Shown: positions 28,105 through 43,923 of the stretch, in pieces | How positions within the stretch are numbered: position 1 is the first letter of the stretch | How the letters are laid out: every line of letters starts with the position of its first letter | Origin: Nitrospirillum viridazoti CBAmc | GTDB lineage: Bacteria > Pseudomonadota > Alphaproteobacteria > Azospirillales > Azospirillaceae | Assembly: GCF_000730165.1 (NCBI RefSeq) | Contig: NZ_CP022111.1 | Coordinates: 1,240,001-1,304,000 of the forward strand | DNA length: 64,000 nucleotides | Direction: 5' to 3' | Translations under genes and position numbers: made by a program | Notes under the pieces: generated by a model | The model's input: only the letters and a program-made list of their open reading frames with translations | Databases searched by the model: none | Told to the model about the DNA's origin: nothing

Positions 28105-28192
28105 CTTGGCGGCGTGCTTGTTTTCGGTGGGATTGACCAAATTCTTAAATGTGCCAAAAGGGGGAACACCCCAACGAAAGTGCCCTGCCCCC

Positions 28193-29565
28193 GTGCACCT
28201 CCGCGATCTGCCGTCCATCAGCGCCGTCCTTTCCCACCCCGCCGCATCCCCCCTGCTGGACCGCCACGGCCGGACGGCGGCGACGGACGCCATCCGCGCC
28301 GTGCTGGCCGAGGCCCGCGCCGCCCTGCTGGCCGGCGGCGACACTGTGCCGGATGCCGACGCCGTGGCCGCCCTGGCGGGGGCCCGGCTGGAGGATACCG
28401 GCCGGTCCAACCTGCGCCCGCTGTTCAACCTGACGGGCACGGTGCTGCACACCAACCTGGGCCGCGCCCTGTTGGCGCGGGAGGCCATGGACGCGGCCCT
28501 GGCCGCCATGGGTGATCCGGTGGCCCTGGAATTCGACCTGGACGACGGCAAGCGCGGCGAGCGGGACGACCATGTCCGCGCCCTGTTGTGCGAACTCACC
28601 GGGGCGGAGGACGCCACCGTCGTCAACAACAATGCCGCCGCCGTGCTGCTGGTGCTGAACACCCTGGCACGCGGCCGCAACGCCATCGTGTCGCGGGGGG
28701 AGCTGATCGAGATCGGCGGCGCCTTCCGCATGCCCGACATCATGGCCCAGGCCGGTGCCCGCCTGGTGGAGGTCGGCACCACCAACCGCACCCACGCCAA
28801 GGACTACAAGGGCGCGCTGACGCCCGAGACCGGCGTTATTCTGAAGGTCCACACCAGCAACTACCGCATCCAGGGCTTCACCAAGGAGGTGCCGGCGCCC
28901 GAACTGGCCGGCATCGCCCATGGCGTCGGGGTACCCTTGGTGAACGACCTCGGGTCCGGCACCTTGGTGGACCTGTCCGCCTACGGCCTGAAGCGCGAGC
29001 CCACAGTGCGCGAAGCGGTGGCGGAGGGGGCGGATCTGGTCACCTTCTCCGGCGACAAGCTGCTGGGCGGGCCGCAGGCCGGCTTCATCGTCGGCCGCCG
29101 CGACCTGATCCAGGCCCTCAACCGCAACCCCATGAAACGGGCCCTGCGGGTGGACAAGGTGCGACTGGCCGCCATCGAGGCGACGCTGAAGCTGTACCGC
29201 GACCCCGATCGCCTGGCCCAGCGCCTGCCCACCCTGGCCCTGCTGTCCCGCCCCCAAGGGGAGATCGCGGAGCAGGCCCGGCGTCTGGCGCCCGTGCTGG
29301 CCCAGGTGCTGGGCGATGGCTTTACGGTGGGGGTGTGCGATTGCGACAGCCAGATCGGCTCCGGCGCATTGCCACTGGACACGCTGCCCAGCGCCGGCCT
29401 GGCCATCCGCGCGGGCGGGGCAGCGTTGAGCGCGCTGGCGGCCGCCTTCCGCACCCTGTCGCGGCCCATCGTTGGCCGCATCGAGGATGGGCGCCTGATC
29501 CTGGACCTGCGCTGCCTGCGTGATGAGGACGCCTTCATCGCCACCCTGGCGGAGTTGCGGCTGCC

Positions 29566-29569
<4 letters not shown>
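28193..29569 (+). CDS. selA: L-seryl-tRNA(Sec) selenium transferase
   Basis: A PLP enzyme that converts Ser-tRNA(Sec) to Sec-tRNA(Sec) with selenophosphate. Landmarks are [26 protein letters not shown]-like [36 protein letters not shown] and the PLP lysine in [13 protein letters not shown]. The start is uncertain: GTG at 28193 gives 458 residues and aligns with the start of the family ([11 protein letters not shown]), while in-frame GTG at 28151 and TTG at 28106 are also open. First gene of selA-selB-selC; it overlaps selB by 4 bp (ATGA). Confidence 0.93.
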
Positions 29570-31533
<1,964 letters not shown>

Positions 31534-31546
31534 GTTTGGTTTATAC

Positions 31547-31642
31547 GGAAGGGAATCGCCCCTGGTGGGGCGTCCGGACTTCAAATCCGGGTGGGGCAGC
31601 GAGACTGTCCCGGGTGGGTTCGACTCCCATTCCCTTCCGCCA
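31547..31642 (+). tRNA. selC: tRNA-Sec (anticodon UCA)
   Basis: A 96-nt tRNA with an 8-bp acceptor stem (GGAAGGGA at 31547-31554 with TCCCTTCC at 31631-31638), a D-arm of the long tRNA-Sec type, anticodon stem CCGGA/TCCGG with loop CTTCAAA and anticodon TCA at 31581-31583, a long variable arm, the T-loop TTCGACT and an encoded CCA end. It lies 13 bp after selB. Confidence 0.97.
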
Positions 31643-33659: not shown

Positions 33660-34706
33660 CTACACCACCCGCACCACCGGTTCCCCCTCCGTCACCCGGC
33701 CGATGATGCGGGCCATGGGATAGCCGGCGTCCACGATCTGGCGGCAGATCTCCTCCGCCCGCTGCGGCGCCACGGCGACCAGCAGGCCGCCGGAGGTTTG
33801 CGGGTCGGTCAGCAGGGCGCGGCGCCAGGGGGCGATGTCGGTGGGCAGGCGCGTCTCCTCGCCATAGCTGGCCCAGTTGCGGTTGGAGGCGCCGGTGATG
33901 AAGCCGGCCTGGGCCAATTGGGCGGCCTGGGACAAGAACGGCAAACGGTCCCACTCCACCGCCAGCGTCAGCCCGGCGCCCCGCGCCATCTCCAGGCCGT
34001 GGCCCAGCAGGCCGAAGCCGGTGACGTCGGTGATGGCGTGCACGTCGGGATCTTGCGCCAGGGTGGCGCCGACGCGGTTCAGCAAGGTGGTGCTGGCCAC
34101 CATCTCGGCGTAGCCGGCGGCATCCAGCGTCTGCTTCTTGAAGGCGGCGGAATAGACGCCCACGCCCAGGCCCTTGGTCAGGATCAGAGCATCGCCGGCC
34201 TTGGCCGTGGCGTTGCGGCGGATGGCCTGGGGCGGGGCGACGCCGATGACGGCCAGGCCGTAGATGGGCTCGCCTGAATCGATGGAATGGCCGCCGGCCA
34301 CGGGAATGCCGGCCTCGGCGCAGATGCTGGCGCCGCCGGCCAGAATCTCCCGCACCACCTCTGGCGCCAGCTTGCCCAAGGGCATGCCCAGGATGGCCAG
34401 CGCGAACAGGGGGCGGCCGCCCATGGCGTAGACGTCGGACAGCGCGTTGGTGGCGGCGATGCGGCCGAAGTCGCGCGGATCGTCCACCACCGGCATGAAA
34501 AAGTCGGTGGTGGCGATGATGCAATGGCGGTCGTCCAGCTGCCAGACGGCCGCGTCATCCCCCGTTTCCGTCCCCACCAGCAGGTTGGCGTAGGCGGCCG
34601 TCTGCGGCTGGCCCGCCAGCAGCTGCTGCAGCACCGCCGGCGCCAGCTTGCAGCCGCACCCCCCACCGTGGGCGAGATCGGTCAAACGTATCGGGTCATT
34701 GGACAT
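33660..34706 (-). CDS. selD: Selenide, water dikinase (selenophosphate synthase)
   Basis: A 348-residue enzyme making selenophosphate from selenide and ATP for SelA. The active-site loop HGGGCGCK has Cys17 and Lys20, the same numbers as in E. coli, so this is the Cys and not the Sec form. ATP-binding motifs are [32 protein letters not shown] and the C-terminal [10 protein letters not shown]. Start at 34706 is preceded by GAAGG at 8 nt; a TTG at 34721 is in frame. Divergent from the permease at 34970, with an 11-bp-arm inverted repeat between them. Confidence 0.95.
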
Positions 34707-34969: not shown

Positions 34970-36034
34970 ATGGACCTGACCGCCGCGAAGTCATCGCCCG
35001 CCCCCGGACGCCCCCACCCCATGGTGGGGATCGCCATCGTCGCCCTGATCGCCATCGCCGGCCTGTTCTACGTGAAATGGTCGCCCTATTACGCCCGCGC
35101 CTTCGCGGCGGCGGCCAACCACGCCATCGGCAAGTCCATCCTGATGGGCACCGACGCCGCCGCCCCGGCCCCGTCGTGGGACGCGGCCGTGGGCTATGCC
35201 CTGGCCTATGGCAAGGCCATCTGGCAGGCCATGGTGCTGGGCCTGCTGCTGGGCTCCGCCATCCAGGCGCTGCTGCCCGTCACCTGGGTGGCGCGCGCCC
35301 TTGGCCGCACCGGCTTCGGCAGCGTGCTGGCCGGCGGCCTGCTGTCCCTGCCCGGCATGATGTGCACCTGCTGCGCCGCCCCGGTGGTCATGGGCCTGCG
35401 CCGTCAGCAGGCGGCGCCCGGGGCGGCCATGGCCTTCTGGCTGGGCAACACCGTGCTGAACCCCGCCACCCTGGTCTTCATAGGCTTCGTCCTGGGCTGG
35501 CAGTGGACGGGCCTACGCCTGGCCCTGGGGCTGGTGATGGTGCTGGGCCTGGGCCTGCTGGCCAACCGCGTCAGCCCCATGCCCGATCAGGCGACCGCCC
35601 TGCTGGCCCTGCAGGCGGAGGCGGAGGCGCAGAACCCCTTTGTCCGCTGGCTCAAAATCCTGGGCCGCATGGCGGTGCGCCTGATCCCGGAATACGTCGT
35701 CATCGTCCTGGCCTTAGGCGCCGCCCGCGCCTGGCTGTTCCCCGCCATCGGGCCGGAGATCGGCAACCAGTTCATCTGGATCGCCGCCTTCGCCATCGCC
35801 GGCACGCTGTTCGTCATCCCCACGGCGGGCGAGGTTCCCATCATCCAGGCCATGCTGTCGCTGGGCATGGGCGTGGGGCCGGCCGGCGCCCTGCTGATGA
35901 CCCTGCCGCCCGTCAGCTTGCCGTCCATCGCCATGCTGCATCGCTCCTTCCCCCAGAAGGCGCTGGCGGCGGTCATCGCCGGCGTGGTGCTGCTGGGCAT
36001 CGTCAGCGGCTATCTGGCGGTGGCGTTGTTCTAG
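34970..36034 (+). CDS. Permease of the ArsP/DUF318 (UPF0718) family
   Basis: A 354-residue integral membrane protein with about eight hydrophobic segments. The motif SLPGMMCTCCAAPVVMGLRR with three cysteines, and a second half-repeat IPTAGEVPIIQAMLSLGMGVGPAGALLMTLPPVSLPSI, are those of the PF03773 permease family, which includes the methylarsenite exporter ArsP. The cysteines may bind a soft metalloid. Divergent from selD, so export of a selenium or arsenic compound is a reasonable but unproved guess. Its TAG stop shares the CTAG with the convergent LysR stop. Confidence 0.82.
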   Translation: MDLTAAKSSPAPGRPHPMVGIAIVALIAIAGLFYVKWSPYYARAFAAAANHAIGKSILMGTDAAAPAPSWDAAVGYALAYGKAIWQAMVLGLLLGSAIQALLPVTWVARALGRTGFGSVLAGGLLSLPGMMCTCCAAPVVMGLRRQQAAPGAAMAFWLGNTVLNPATLVFIGFVLGWQWTGLRLALGLVMVLGLGLLANRVSPMPDQATALLALQAEAEAQNPFVRWLKILGRMAVRLIPEYVVIVLALGAARAWLFPAIGPEIGNQFIWIAAFAIAGTLFVIPTAGEVPIIQAMLSLGMGVGPAGALLMTLPPVSLPSIAMLHRSFPQKALAAVIAGVVLLGIVSGYLAVALF

Positions 36035-36969
36035 CTCTCGCCCCCCGGGTCGCCCCCCAGGTCGCAACGCGGCCCCATGTAGCCCGGCAGGGCGGTGGTC
36101 AGGGCATCCACCGCCGCCCGCACCTTCAGGGGCAGGTGCGGCGTCTGCACCCACAGGGTATGGACGTCATAGAGATACTCCGGCTGGTCCGGCAGCACCG
36201 TCACCAGCGCGCCCGACGCCAGCTGTTCACGGATAAGCCAGGAGGGCAGCCAGGCCAGACCCATGCCGGCCACGGCCAGGTCGGCGATGGTCTCCAGATC
36301 GTCCAGCTGGATGCGGTGGCGGGGCAACATCTCCACCGCCGGGCGCCCGTCGCGCGGGAACAGCCATTGCGGAATGCGGGCGGAGCGGCGGTAGATGATG
36401 CCCTCATGCCGGGCCAAGTCATCCAGATCCGTCGGCGCGCCATGCGCCGCGAGGTAGGCGGGTGCGGCGCAGACCACCATGCGCTGGCGCGCCACGCGCC
36501 GGGCGATCAGGCCGGCGCGGTCGGCCAGGCCGCCGGTGCGGATGGCCAGATCGAACCCCTCCTCCACCAGGTCGACCAAGCGATCGCCCAGCGACAAATC
36601 CAGCTCCAGCGCCGGATAACGCCGCGCCAGTTGCAGCAGCACGGGTACGACGCAGCGGCGGCCGAAATGCTCCGGCATGGTCACGCGCAGCCGGCCGCGC
36701 GGCTCCCCCAGCTGGTCGGCGGCCAGGGCGTCGGCCGCGTCCGCCTCCGCCAGCACGACGCGGCAGCGCTCGTAATAGGCCCGGCCAAAATCCGTCAGGC
36801 TCTGCCGCCGCGTGGTGCGGTTCAGCAGCCGCACGCCCAGCCGTTCCTCCAGGAAGCGGATGTGCTTACCCACCATGGGGCCCGACAGGCCCAGCGCCGA
36901 CGCGGCGGCGGCGAAAGACCCCAGATCCACCGCCTTGACGAAGACGGCCATGCTGCCCAAGCGGTCCAT
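36031..36969 (-). CDS. LysR-family transcriptional regulator
   Basis: A 312-residue LysR protein: MDRLGSMAVFVKAVDLGSFAAAASALGLSGPMVGKHIRFLEERLGVRLLNRTTR is the helix-turn-helix segment of the CrgA/DmlR-like group, effector domain from about residue 90. ATG at 36981 is an alternative start. Divergent from the MDR oxidoreductase at 37073, the same pairing as at 1-1810. An 11-bp palindrome AACCATTGGTT (36976-36986) lies at its start codon. Confidence 0.9.
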   Translation of the reverse strand: MDRLGSMAVFVKAVDLGSFAAAASALGLSGPMVGKHIRFLEERLGVRLLNRTTRRQSLTDFGRAYYERCRVVLAEADAADALAADQLGEPRGRLRVTMPEHFGRRCVVPVLLQLARRYPALELDLSLGDRLVDLVEEGFDLAIRTGGLADRAGLIARRVARQRMVVCAAPAYLAAHGAPTDLDDLARHEGIIYRRSARIPQWLFPRDGRPAVEMLPRHRIQLDDLETIADLAVAGMGLAWLPSWLIREQLASGALVTVLPDQPEYLYDVHTLWVQTPHLPLKVRAAVDALTTALPGYMGPRCDLGGDPGGES

Positions 36970-37072
36970 ATTAAAAACCATTGGTTCATAGTGTTCTGCA
37001 TCCTAGCCCATTTATCCCGCCTGGCGGTCACGCTCATGTTCATTCCTGTCAATTGATTTGGAGTGAATGACC

Positions 37073-38105: not shown

Positions 38106-39032
38106 CTACGCCAGCAGCAGCGGATTGGGCGCATGGCGCAGCCAGCCGACCTCGGCCACCATCAGGTCCAGGCCCAGGCTGGCCAAATCGTCGGCGTAGG
38201 GGTCCAGCCTGGGGTCCTTGGCCACGTACAGCATCTTGGCGTAGGTATGGCAGTCGTCGCAGGTTTCCACCTGCACCGCACCGTTCTCCCCCTCCACGCT
38301 TTTCAGCGACAGGTGGGCGGACTGGCCGCAGGTGATGCACACCGCCCGCACATGGTTCCAGGCGGTGGAGCAGAGGGAGCAGTAGAGGTAACGCACGCCG
38401 GGCGTGGAGCCGGAAGCGGTTATGACACCCGCCACCGGGGTGGAGCCGCAGCAGGGGCACAGGCCGCGCTCCGGCAGCAGATGCACCTGGGACTCGTCCA
38501 GGGTGGCGGCCAGCTTGGTGAAATAGACCTGCAGGGCCGCCGCGATGAAGACGGCGCGGCCGGCATCCTCAGGCGCGACGTTGCCGCTGAGGAAGTCGTT
38601 GGCCAGGTATTCCAGCGTGTCGCCGTCCACCTCGTTCAGGCTGTCGATGACGGAGGCCACCAGATCCGGCACTTCGGGCAGGCGGTCGAAATGGCGCAGG
38701 ACCAGGGTCAGCGCCTCGCGCCAGACGATGTCGCGCTCATGGCCATCGGCGGCCAGGGGCGGCATGCCGGCGTCGGTGGCCGTGGCCACGTCGTCGGCAT
38801 CCGGGCCGGTCACATCGATCATGTCGGCCGCGTCGTGCTGGGCCTGCGACAGCTCGCACAAAAACTCCAGCCACTGCGCCATGGGATGGTCGACCGCCAG
38901 CACGCCCAGGCGCCCGGAGGTACGGGCGAAGCGCGTGGACGGATCGGGCAGGATAATGGGGGCCGGCGCCGTCACCCCGCCTTGGGGGTTGCCGATCCAC
39001 GGCGCCTTGGGCGCCACTTCACCCTGTCTCAT
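38106..39032 (-). CDS. fdhE: Formate dehydrogenase accessory protein FdhE
   Basis: A 308-residue cytoplasmic iron-binding maturation factor for formate dehydrogenases. The four CxxC pairs of the rubredoxin-like region are visible: LCPCCGS, YCSLCST, CITCGQ and CDDCHT, with RYLYCSLCSTAWNHVR typical of the family. AGGAG 8 nt upstream sets the start. Last gene of the fdn operon; separated from the gamma-subunit gene by 156 bp that contain a strong hairpin (39116-39145). Confidence 0.93.
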   Translation of the reverse strand: MRQGEVAPKAPWIGNPQGGVTAPAPIILPDPSTRFARTSGRLGVLAVDHPMAQWLEFLCELSQAQHDAADMIDVTGPDADDVATATDAGMPPLAADGHERDIVWREALTLVLRHFDRLPEVPDLVASVIDSLNEVDGDTLEYLANDFLSGNVAPEDAGRAVFIAAALQVYFTKLAATLDESQVHLLPERGLCPCCGSTPVAGVITASGSTPGVRYLYCSLCSTAWNHVRAVCITCGQSAHLSLKSVEGENGAVQVETCDDCHTYAKMLYVAKDPRLDPYADDLASLGLDLMVAEVGWLRHAPNPLLLA

Positions 39033-39115
39033 GATCAGACTCCTGAAAAAGCACTCGGGGGCGAGGCCTGATCCGACCGCGCCCCCGATAGATAGGCCCT
39101 TTATACGCTCCATAC

Positions 39116-39188: not shown

Positions 39189-39860
39189 CTAATCGCGGAA
39201 TTTGGCCGTGCTGTCCGGCGTCGGCCCGGGGGAGCCGCTGGCGACCAGGCTGCGGAACCACTTGCGGTGATGCCGATGGGCCCAGCCGGGCGTGACCCAG
39301 CCGTGCAGCATGGCCCGCATGGAGCCCTTCACCCACAGCGCGGCATAGACATGCGTGATCCAGATCAGGATGGCGCCGATGGCGGCCATGCTGTGGATCA
39401 GCACGGCCACGCGCTGCGTCTCGATGGAGGTGGCGTCCCCGAAATAAACCTCCCAGATCAGGATGCCGGTGACGAACAGCACCGGGATGATCAGGGCCAT
39501 GCCCCAGAACACCGCCTTCTGGCCGGCGTTGAAGCGGCCGACGGGCGGCACCTCCTCCTCCCGGTTGTCCAGCACCTTGTCCAGCGACTTGGCCCATTCC
39601 ACGTCGTCGCGGTTCCACAGGTTGTCCCGCCAGAACTGGATGAACAGGCCCAGGAAGCTGACGATCAGGCACACGCCCAGCCAGGGATGCAGCGCCCGCA
39701 TCCATTGTCCGCTGCCGAACAGGTTCGACAGCCAGAAGAACACGGGATGGAACATGGCCAGGCCCGACAGGGTCAACAGCACGAAGCAGAGGCCGGTGAT
39801 CCAGTGGTTCACCAGGGTCAGGGTGGAATTACGGACGATGGTTCCCTTGGGATAGCTCAT
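39189..39860 (-). CDS. Formate dehydrogenase-N gamma subunit (cytochrome b556)
   Basis: A 223-residue membrane cytochrome with four hydrophobic segments. Candidate haem ligands are His18 (TLVNHWITG), a second in the MHALHPWLG-like [10 protein letters not shown], and a late pair in [13 protein letters not shown]. It carries electrons from the beta subunit to quinone. Overlaps the beta gene by 4 bp (ATGA). Length is close to FdnI/FdoI. Confidence 0.92.
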
Positions 39861-40780
39861 GATTCGGCGCTCCCATTCCGTTTTGCCTTCTCCATTTCCA
39901 GCCGGGCATGGGCCTCATCGGCTTCCGTCGTCTCATTGGGGCCGGCGACGATGGAATGGACGAAGGCGCCCACAGCGGCGAAGGCCAGGCCCGCCAGGGC
40001 CACCGGCTTCAGGAAACCCTTCCACGCCCCCACCAGCGCGCTGATATGCGGCTTGTCCGGCAGGCCGGAGTAGAGCGAGGGCTTGTCGGCGTGGTGCAGC
40101 ACGTACATGACGTGCGTGCCGCCCACCTCCGGCGGGTCATAGAGGCCGGCGTTCTGGAAGCCGCGTTCCTTCAGCTCGGCGATGCGCTCGCCCGCCCAGT
40201 CCTTCATGTCGTCCTTGGAGCCGAACATGATGGCACCGGTGGGGCAGGTCTTCACGCAGGCCGGCTCCAGCCCCACGCCCACGCGGTCGGAACACAAGGT
40301 GCACTTGTACGACTTGTGGTCCTGGGCGCTGATGCGCGGGATGTTGAAGGGGCACCCCTTCACGCAATAGCCGCAGCCGATGCAGTTCTCGCTGATGAAG
40401 TCGACGATGCCGTTGGCGTACTGGACGATGGCGCCGGGGGCCGGGCAGGCCTTGAGGCAGCCCGGATCCTCGCAGTGCATGCAGCCGTCCTTGCGGATCA
40501 GCCACTCCAGGTTCCCCTGCTCGTCCTCGTACTCGGCGAACCGCATCAGGGTCCAGGTGCCGGGGTTGAGGTCGTGCGGGTTCTCGTACGCGCCCTGGAA
40601 CTCCTCCATCTCTGGCCGCAGGTTGTTCCATTCCATGCAGGCGGACTGGCAGGCCTTGCAGCCGATGCAGCGGCTGACGTCGATCAGCTTGGCCACCTCA
40701 AGCTCATGGTGGCGCACCGAGGGCGGCGTCAGGTTGGTGGCCGACCGGCGGATGTAGTCTTGGGATTGCAGGTCGGCCAT
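39857..40780 (-). CDS. fdxH: Formate dehydrogenase-N beta subunit, iron-sulfur
   Basis: A 307-residue subunit with four [4Fe-4S] motifs: [41 protein letters not shown] and [21 protein letters not shown], and a C-terminal membrane anchor ([22 protein letters not shown]). It links the alpha subunit to the cytochrome. ATG at 40780 overlaps the alpha stop (TGATG); an in-frame GTG at 40783 is possible. Confidence 0.95.
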
Positions 40781-43700
40781 CACAGGCTCCCCATCTTGGT
40801 GAGCGACTTCGGCACCCCTTGGGCGTCACGCGGCCCCTGGGCCACATCCACCGCGGGGGGCGCGCTGGTCTTCTCGATGTTGAGCAGGAAGGCCTTGAAC
40901 TCCGGCGTGTTGGTGTTGGCGTCACCCACGAATGGCGTCAGGGTGTTGGCGCCGTAGCCCTTGCGCGCCACGCCCGTGAAGCCCCAGTGGATGGGGCAGC
41001 CGATGACATGGGTCGGCTTGCCGTCCACCATCAGCGGCTTGATGCGCTTGGTCACGAAGGCCTTGCAGATCACCTGGCCGCGCTTGGACGACACCTTGAC
41101 CCAGCCGCCCTGCTCGATGCCCTTCTCCTTGGCCAGGGCCTCGCCGATCTCCACGAATTCCTCCGGCTGGAGGATGGCGTTGATCAGCGCATGCTTGGTC
41201 CAATAGTGGAAGTGCTCGGTCAGGCGGTAGGTGGTGCCGACGTAGGGGAAGTCGGCCGAGGCGCCCATGTGTTCCTTGTCGCTGGCGAACAGGCGGGCGG
41301 CCGGATTGTTCTTCACCTTGGGGTGCAGCACGTTTTCCGACGGGCTTTCGAACGGCTCGTAATGCTCGGGGAACGGACCTTCGTTCATCAGGCCGCGGGC
41401 GAACAGGCGGGCCTGCCCCTCCTGGTTCATGATGAAGGGGCCGACACTGTCCGACGGCTTCACCGTCGGGCCATAGTCGGGCACGTCCACGCCCACCCAC
41501 TTGGACCCGTTCCACTCGATGACGGGCTTGGCCGGGTTCCAGGCCTTGCCCTCCGGGTTGGCGCTGGCACGGTTGTACAGGATGCGCCGGTTGGCCGGCC
41601 ACGCCCAGGCCCAGTTGGGGGCGATGCCCGCCTCACGCGGATCCGTCGCATCACGGCGGGCCGTCATGTTGCCCTTGTCGGTGAAGCTGCCGGCGAAGAT
41701 CCAGCAGCCCGACATGGTGGTGCCGTCGTCGCGCAGCTGGGCGAAGGCGTCCAGCTGCTGCCCTGCCTTCAACAGCGGGGCGCCCGTGGCCGGGTCGTTG
41801 ACGTCCGCCAGGGCGCGGCCGTTCATCTCCTTGGCCACTTCCTCCGGCTCCGGCTCATGCGGGTCGGCATAGGTCCAGGTGAGGTTCAGCAGCGCGTCGG
41901 GGAAGGCCCCGCCGTCCTTGGCGTACATCGCCTTCATGCGGTTGTAGAGGCCGGCGATGATCCACAGGTCGGTCTTGGCCTGGCCGGGGGCGTCGGCCGC
42001 CTTCCAGTGCCACTGCAGCCAGCGGGCGGAGTTGACCAGCGTGCCATTCTCCTCCGCGAAGCAGGTGGTTGGCAGCTGGAACACCTCGGTCTGGATCTCC
42101 GTCGGCTTGGACGGGTTCTGCGGACCGTAGTCCTGCCAGAAATTGGCCGTCTCGGTATCCAGCGGGTCCATGACGACAAGGTACTTCAGGTTCGACAGGC
42201 CCCGGCGGATCTTGCCCCGGTCGGGGAAGGCCTGCATGGGGTTGAAGCCCTGGCAGATGTAGCCGTTCATCTGCTTGTTGTTCATCATCTCGAACGCGCG
42301 CAGGATGTCGTAACCATCCACGTCCAGCTTGGGCAAATAGTCGTAGGCCCAGTTGTTCTCGGCCGTGGCGGCGCTGCCGAACATGGCCTTCTGGAAGCTG
42401 ACGAAGAACTTGCGGTAGTTCTGCCAGTAACTGGTCTGCCCCGGGCGCAGGGGCTTGAACAGCTTGGTCTCCATGTACTTGTCGAAGGTGACTTCACTGT
42501 CCTTCGGCATGTTCATGTAGCCCGGCAGTGAGGCCGAGAGCAGGCCGATGTCGGTCAGGCCCTGGATGTTGGAATGGCCGCGCAGGGCGTTCATGCCGCC
42601 GCCGGCGACACCGATGTTGCCCAGCAGCAGCTGCACCATGGCCATGGTGCGGATGTTTTGCGCGCCCACCGAATGCTGCGTCCAGCCCAGCGCGAACAGG
42701 CTGGTCAGGGCCTTGTCCGGCGCCGAGGTGGTGGCGATCAGCTTGCAGATCTCCAGGTACTTGTCCTGGGGCGTGCCGCAGATGCGGGACACCATCTCGG
42801 GCGTATACCGGTCGACGTGGCTTTTCAGCAGGTTGATGACGCAGCGCGGGTTCTGCCAGGTGTCATCGGACTTGGCGTAGCCTTGCTCATCCAGCTCGTA
42901 ATCCCAGCTGGACTTGTCATAGCTGCGCTTTTCCTCGTTATAGCCGCTGAACAGGCCATCCTCGAAGGCGAAGCCGTCCTTCACGATCAGGCTGGCGTTG
43001 GTATACGCCCGCACGTACTCGTGCTGGATGGCATCGTTCGTCAGCAGATAGCGCATGAGGCCGCTGAGGAAAGCGATGTCGGTGCCCGGCCGGATGGGGG
43101 CATAGACGTCCGCCACGGAGGCCGTGCGGGTGAAACGCGGATCGACAACGATGAGCTTGGCCTTGTTCTCGATCTTGGCCTCGACCACCCATTTGAATCC
43201 GCAGGGGTGCGCTTCGGCGGCATTGCCGCCCATGACGATGACGACGTTGGCGTTCTTGATGTCCTGCCAGGTGTTGGTCATCGCACCGCGACCGAATGTT
43301 GGGGCCAGACTGGCCACCGTCGGTCCGTGTCAGACACGCGCCTGGTTGTCGAACGTCACCATGCCCAACGCGCGGGCCCACTTGAACGTCACATAGGCCG
43401 CCTCGTTCGAGGCCGCCGAGGCCGCCAGCATGCCCGTGGTGTTCCACCGGTTCACCGTGGCGCCGGCGCCGTTCTTGGCGATGAAGTTGGCGTCGCGGTC
43501 CTGCTTCATCAGCGTGGCGATGCGGTCCAGGGCGAAATCCCAGCTGACCTCCTTCCACTCCGTGGCACCGGCGGCGCGATATTTCGGCACCGTCAGGCGG
43601 CCCGGCGCGCGCACGATGTCCAGCAGGCCGGCGCCCTTGGGGCACAGCGTGCCGCGGTTGACGGGATGGTCCGGATCACCCTCGATATGGATGACCGAGG

Positions 43701-43923
43701 ACTTCACGTTCTTCGCGCGATCGCCCTGGCTGTAGATGAGGATGCCGCAGGCCACCGAGCAATAGGTGCAGGTGTTGCGGGTTTCGGTGGCGGCGGTCAG
43801 CTTGAACGGCCGGACGGATGCCGCCAGCGCGGTGCCCGCCGAGCCGAAGCCCAGCGCGCCCATGCTGGAGACCGCCAGTCCCGCGCCGGTCAGCTTGATA
43901 AAGCCGCGACGACTGAGATCCAT
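40780..43923 (-). CDS. fdnG: Formate dehydrogenase-N alpha subunit, selenoprotein (Sec198)
   Basis: One gene of 1047 residues read through an in-frame UGA at 43330-43332 as selenocysteine. The N-terminus has a Tat signal ([12 protein letters not shown]), the [4Fe-4S] motif CTYCSVACG, and [10 protein letters not shown]. The sequence then runs [25 protein letters not shown], the FdnG/FdoG pattern around the Mo/W-ligating Sec, followed by the molybdopterin domains ([48 protein letters not shown]). Periplasmic; oxidises formate to CO2. Treated as stop, the UGA would split it into apparent 197- and 845-residue genes. Heads the fdn operon; GGGAG lies 10 nt upstream. Confidence 0.96.
43289..43332 (-). 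promoter_or_regulatory. Bacterial SECIS element in fdnG
   Basis: Starting at the UGA, the mRNA folds with a lower stem CGAC/GUCG and an upper stem GGCC/GGCC closed by the loop AGUCU (upper hairpin 43303-43315). This is the (A/G)GUCU loop that SelB recognises, 11 nt after the UGA as in E. coli fdnG/fdhF. Confidence 0.85.

Follow-up and report, generated by a model that had tools for sequence, protein, structure and literature searches.

A predicted selenocysteine-containing formate dehydrogenase encoded beside selABCD in Nitrospirillum viridazoti CBAmc

Results

The formate dehydrogenase operon

The window analysed here, a 64,000-nucleotide stretch of the Nitrospirillum viridazoti CBAmc genome (contig NZ_CP022111.1, positions 1,240,001 to 1,304,000), encodes on its minus strand the alpha subunit of a formate dehydrogenase of the N/O type (fdoG/fdnG; 40780..43923). 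The frame opens at 43923, includes the 23-residue stretch noted earlier (letters not shown), carries a single in-frame UGA at 43332-43330 (codon 198), and is closed by a TGA at 40782-40780, which was taken as the true stop. This reproduces the frame, the UGA position and the 1047-residue joined product given in a preliminary description of the locus, which had proposed that the UGA is read as selenocysteine (Sec).

The joined product matched NCBIfam profile TIGR01553 with 1495 bits, well over the cut-off of 814.2, residues 3-1018 aligning to positions 2-1009 of the 1009 in the profile, and it contains the Pfam domains PF04879, PF00384 and PF01568. Alignment with Escherichia coli formate dehydrogenase-N (FDH-N; PDB 1kqf_A), which had been suggested as a check, gave 1486 bits over residues 1-1018 and paired the UGA with a non-standard residue, X, in that chain. 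The N-terminus of the protein includes SRRGF within a 10-residue stretch (letters not shown), presumably a leader of the twin-arginine type, and residue 198 is what we take to be the molybdenum ligand position. When TGA is read as U, residues 198-201 spell UHGP, in agreement with the Sec-containing active-site motif UHxP as it is given in a recent review (PMC13188914).

Directly behind fdoG, with frames overlapping end to start, lie genes for the other two subunits of an FDH-N/O complex. The first is fdoH, encoding the Fe-S beta subunit (39857..40780, minus strand; TIGR01582, 463 bits, cut-off 335), whose ATG overlaps the fdoG stop by one base (TGATG). The other is fdoI, encoding the gamma subunit, a cytochrome b556 (39189..39860, minus strand; TIGR01583, 183 bits, cut-off 116), whose start and the fdoH stop overlap by four bases. 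The formate dehydrogenase accessory protein FdhE is encoded at 38106..39113 on the same strand (TIGR01562, 237 bits, cut-off 188; PF04216, PF24859 and PF24860).

Genes for selenocysteine synthesis and insertion

The four genes of the Sec-decoding trait, selA, selB, selC and selD, are all present in this one genome. L-seryl-tRNA(Sec) selenium transferase is encoded by selA (28106..29569, plus strand; TIGR00474, 601 bits, cut-off 268), although its true start may be further in, because the family match begins at residue 32 of the open reading frame. The Sec-specific elongation factor gene selB (29566..31533, plus strand; TIGR00475, 395 bits, cut-off 242) encodes C-terminal winged helices (PF09106, PF09107 and PF25461), which bind the SECIS element in other bacteria. 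The tRNA-Sec gene selC (31546..31642, plus strand), with anticodon TCA, was found by ARAGORN and by RF01852 (87 bits, gathering threshold 47); of ten genome matches to that family it alone was over the cut-off. Selenophosphate synthetase is encoded by selD (33660..34706, minus strand; PRK00943, 503 bits against a threshold of 299; TIGR00476, 424 against 125), and its N-terminal motif HGGGCGCK has Cys and not Sec. From the start of the selA open reading frame to the start of fdoG is 15.8 kb, a span that holds selA, selB, tRNA-Sec, selD, fdhE, fdoI and fdoH, so the earlier statement that the four sel genes lie within 16 kb holds. The selenouridine gene ybbB/mnmH (TIGR03167) gave no match in the genome, and the E. 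coli control was over the cut-off; the known use of selenium in this genome is therefore Sec.

The selB-selC junction was examined separately. The tRNA gene begins 12 nt past the UGA stop of selB (31531-31642, plus strand), without overlap, and the selB frame is open through the tRNA. Readthrough of this UGA into selC was considered and rejected: in seven Nitrospirillum genomes the gap between the selB stop and selC is 0, 12, 12, 12, 13, 15 and 17 nt, with no overlap in any of them and a TAA stop in one, so a selB frame running into selC is not kept. A survey of 28 loci, in which certain genomes occur twice, yielded 27 readable ones (L034 has no selB end), in which selC was nested in selB in 6, partly overlapping in 5 and separate in 16. 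In alphaproteobacteria selC has been described as nested in selB, as in many of them, or as abutting it, and Dyella and Luteibacter have a partial overlap, the overlapping form having likely been transferred to these genera (PMC8124441). The Nitrospirillum junction looks like a state that lacks the selB-selC overlap known from other alphaproteobacteria. As a side observation, in Tardiphaga (L037), Mesorhizobium (L040) and Bradyrhizobium (L041) selC partly overlaps the end of selB with a 48-nt offset, and the same offset is seen in Dyella (L058) and in a contig labelled Eremiobacteraeota (L036). The partial overlap in the first three would be consistent with an fdo-sel module that is shared through transfer.

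A SECIS element directly follows the UGA

Just 3' of the in-frame UGA, the Rfam family SECIS_3 (RF01989) matched the minus strand at 43335-43277 with 85.4 bits (gathering threshold 63; E 7e-19 over the window), and the matched hairpin has the AGUCU apex that had been pointed out earlier. No other SECIS_3 match was found in the genome (7.38 Mb). SECIS_2 gave no match in the genome with a positive E. coli control, and SECIS_4 gave none either, but its control also gave no match, which makes that search uninformative. FdoG is the only putative selenoprotein found here by the SECIS searches; the Rfam SECIS families are narrow, and the genome may encode further selenoproteins with divergent SECIS elements.

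Folding of the hairpin, another check that had been proposed, gave an unremarkable result. The 47-nt stretch on its own had a folding energy of -18.2 kcal/mol (z = -1.42), a value equalled or bettered by 18 of 200 shuffled sequences. The case for a SECIS element is thus made by the covariance-model match and by covariation, and not by fold energy.

Covariation was assessed in 58 distinct 59-nt SECIS sequences drawn from 93 fdoG loci, E. coli K-12 fdnG included. Over the whole structure 90.7% of cells were paired, a share that fell to 27.8-48.2% on sliding one side, and the covariation score was 0.207, compared to 0.022-0.063 for the slid controls and 0.100 for shuffles, none of 500 of which reached the observed value. 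The apical helix carries the clearest signal, with 98.5% of cells paired and two-sided changes in three of its seven pairs. The lower stem is weaker: 84.7% of its cells are paired, and two of the pairs are broken in 22 and 25 of the 58 sequences. Two of the five covariation measures were within the range of shuffling, namely the number of two-sided pairs (5, reached by 111 of 500 shuffles) and the number of further pair types (13, reached by 82 of 500). Because all of the sequences encode a near-identical peptide, codon constraint accounts for some of the conservation and may also explain part of the covariation signal. Synonymous change among codons for the same residue, counted across six genus relatives with codons paired by position and without alignment, was lower in the 17 codons immediately following the UGA, with 6 of 101 cases, versus 81 of 470 in codons 18-100 and 228 of 1632 in codons 101-400.

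Conservation, selection and other readings of the UGA

The codon at residue 198 is TGA in all 93 loci examined, from alpha- and gammaproteobacteria, and no Cys codon was found at this position among them. The set is made up of 12 genome loci (our own genome included), E. coli K-12 fdnG and the best 80 of 593 named loci; several genomes enter it twice (L003 and L032 are one such pair), and the distant loci L014-L031, which are other molybdopterin oxidoreductases at 41% identity or less, were left out of the count. The search patterns did not contain the Sec residue, and therefore did not select for TGA among the loci.

A mechanical, stop-based list of open reading frames under translation table 11 breaks the fdoG region into two pieces, 43330-43923 and 40780-43317. 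The expectation that a stop-based gene caller would report two fragments was borne out to this extent, but not by the public records of Paracoccus aestuarii and Roseomonas gilardii, in which fdnG is annotated as a single CDS of roughly 3.1 kb. Such a split is also what would be expected if the UGA were an ordinary stop in a decaying pseudogene, the downstream half being a relic. Against this, the downstream 849 codons are intact, and comparisons with five genus relatives gave low dN/dS both before and after the UGA, so that downstream decay is absent: the upstream and downstream values were 0.069 and 0.025 for L003, 0.099 and 0.14 for L004, 0.268 and 0.229 for L005, 0.232 and 0.228 for L006, and 0.252 and 0.243 for L007. 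For the other loci covered (L034, L035, L037, L040 and E. coli) the values were 0.129-0.257, the upstream value for E. coli not being computable owing to saturation. The TGA common to all of the loci and the presence of both SECIS and selABCD also speak against a pseudogene, which we regard as exceedingly improbable. The combination named earlier as one that would refute the Sec reading, Cys in close relatives together with a decayed downstream half, was sought in the examined loci and not seen.

A sequencing error in a Cys codon deserves mention in that a single-base difference from TGC or TGT would yield the observed TGA. The same triplet, however, recurs throughout the examined set in independent assemblies, both from the genus and from other families, even if some genomes are represented twice, and the chance of such an error is practically nil. 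It could also be supposed that translation passes the UGA independently of SelB and SECIS, by readthrough or by decoding as another residue such as Cys or Trp, and the identity of the inserted residue is indeed predicted here from sequence. The genome, on the other hand, has one SECIS_3 element and one tRNA-Sec over the cut-offs as well as selA, selB and selD, and several solved homologues are named as selenocysteine-containing, which leaves decoding of this kind a very slight chance. We rejected all three explanations on the grounds of conservation, selection, SECIS and the sel genes. The genes, the codon, the SECIS element, its conservation and the selection on the frame are read directly from the sequence, and they indicate that positions 43923-40780 almost certainly encode an FdoG/FdnG with Sec at UGA codon 198, part of a standard membrane-bound FdoGHI/FdnGHI enzyme.

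Relatives and distribution of the fdo-sel cluster

Among the named loci listed (the best 80 of 593), the closest FdoG proteins are those of Nitrospirillum amazonense strains, at 99% and 89% identity. Six other Nitrospirillum genomes, one of them represented by a partial contig, have an FdoG 86-99% identical to ours with the TGA, and selB is over the cut-off in seven Nitrospirillum genomes, our own included. In 17 genomes of other genera of the family the search found no FdoG exceeding 43% identity across most of its length, and four of these have a TGA-containing relative at 38-44% identity. The same best 80 of 593 loci include FdoG proteins at 75-81% identity from Luteibacter, Dyella, Tardiphaga, Mesorhizobium and others. 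This patchy presence points to loss of the fdo-sel cluster or to its horizontal transfer, the idea of transfer drawing on the identities and on the patchiness; horizontal transfer of Sec traits has been described (PMC1273633).

Among known systems, one of the closest counterparts is E. coli FDH-N (fdnGHI; PDB 1kqf and 1kqg), which has the same Sec site, SECIS family and G-H-I gene order and matches over residues 1-1018. The FdoG proteins of enteric loci are 64-65% identical to that of Nitrospirillum, but gene neighbourhoods differ: in 12 enteric fdoG loci, fdhE was found and selA, selB and selD were not within the 10 kb or less that was viewed on each side, whereas Nitrospirillum fdoG adjoins selABCD and fdhE. 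Sinorhizobium meliloti pSymA likewise has fdoGHI and selABCD in one cluster, but a transposon lies there between selAB and selCD (PMC8124441), whereas selC directly follows selB in Nitrospirillum. The clusters of Luteibacter, Dyella, Tardiphaga (L037) and Mesorhizobium (L040) have FdoG proteins 78-81% identical to ours and near-identical SECIS elements, but a different gene order (placement of selD, the permease and selAB), and in several of them selC partly overlaps selB. Two contigs appear to be mislabelled, as judged by fdoG and SECIS only: a 'Mycobacterium' contig (L054) that is close to Inquilinus (L052 and L053), and a 'Chryseobacterium' contig (L107) with an enteric SECIS.

A permease beside selD

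Between selD and fdhE are genes for an ArsP_1-family permease, a LysR-type regulator and a zinc-binding-dehydrogenase-family protein. The permease gene (34970..36034, plus strand; PF03773, 82.3 bits against a threshold of 32.3) is divergent from selD and its product has a CTCC motif; it fell under the NCBIfam cut-offs of SaoE (42.5 versus 325 bits) and SO_0444 (40.4 versus 300 bits). The regulator gene (36031-36981, minus strand) had a match of at least 35% identity in only 4 of 92 loci, and a LysR_Se subfamily has been described near sel genes (PMC5322559).

In 10 of 92 loci a related permease, at 65-97% identity, was found in the vicinity of fdo and sel genes. These loci belong to Nitrospirillum, Luteibacter, Dyella, Methylocella, Hyphomicrobium and a contig labelled Eremiobacteraeota, and they come from a neighbourhood survey that was bounded by the locus ends and dropped selB matches of fewer than 200 residues and lysR, qor, ogt and permease matches below 35% identity. 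In one alphaproteobacterium (G267) the permease gene is directly upstream of fdoG. The permease is rare in a sample of the class (3 of 289 genomes). Of the three genomes that have it, two belong to the set of 11 (out of 289) with SECIS_3 (p 0.004), the SECIS_3 search having used stricter filters than the permease search, and in the third (G088) selA is found at a distance of about 71 kb; the other nine SECIS_3 genomes are without the permease. Across 398 Pseudomonadota genomes, selA was present in 12 of 16 permease-positive and 40 of 382 permease-negative genomes (Fisher p 9e-9), a test that ignores relatedness, a single family (f187) supplying six of the 12 genomes that have both the permease and selA. 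The permease and selA counts were taken as referring to the same 398 genomes, and the totals and listed genomes agree. All five positives at 58% identity or more have selA, and the four positives without selA (G524, G571, G594 and G596) are 46-54% identical. The association between the permease and selenium is partly confounded by phylogeny.

Discussion

The fdo and sel genes of Nitrospirillum predict a familiar route to a selenoenzyme, in which Sec insertion, export, metal binding and the enzyme activity of FdoG are expected by analogy with the established E. coli system. SelD would make selenophosphate, with which SelA would convert Ser-tRNA(Sec) to Sec-tRNA(Sec). SelB, encoded in the window with its winged-helix domains, is predicted to bind the fdoG SECIS, and would carry Sec-tRNA(Sec) to the ribosome while bound to this hairpin just 3' of the UGA, which would thereby be decoded as Sec and not as a stop. 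The Sec residue would then ligate a Mo/W-bisMGD centre, the site of formate oxidation, and FdhE would assist in the maturation of FdoG.

Most of this is known biology. The requirement of the fdnG stem-loop for UGA decoding was reported in 1991, as referenced in PMC13188914, and the same review names FdhA as the most widely distributed bacterial selenoprotein family. Sec in the FdoG/FdnG family, the clustering of fdo with sel genes, and selC genes that abut or overlap selB are all already published. The earlier observation of the in-frame UGA, the hairpin and the nearby sel genes is confirmed and the reading of the UGA as Sec is supported, but the biology is ordinary.

The sole mildly new lead is the ArsP_1 permease beside selD, which has close relatives in other fdo-sel clusters and might handle selenium. 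That it is a dedicated selenium-handling transporter, for uptake or export of reduced selenium species, travelling with a horizontally moving fdo-fdhE-selABCD module, seems to us a doubtful proposition. No link of an ArsP_1/COG0701-type permease or SaoE to selenium or selD was found in titles and abstract openings among the papers listed, which is no proof that the link is unpublished, and passages of PMC2432076 make no mention of one. The review cited above states that a high-affinity transport system specific to selenium has yet to be identified in any prokaryote (PMC13188914), and a selenium role of the permease, if true, would bear on this stated gap. The main import of the locus is for annotation: what a mechanical reading divides into two fragments is predicted to be one selenoprotein of 1047 residues.
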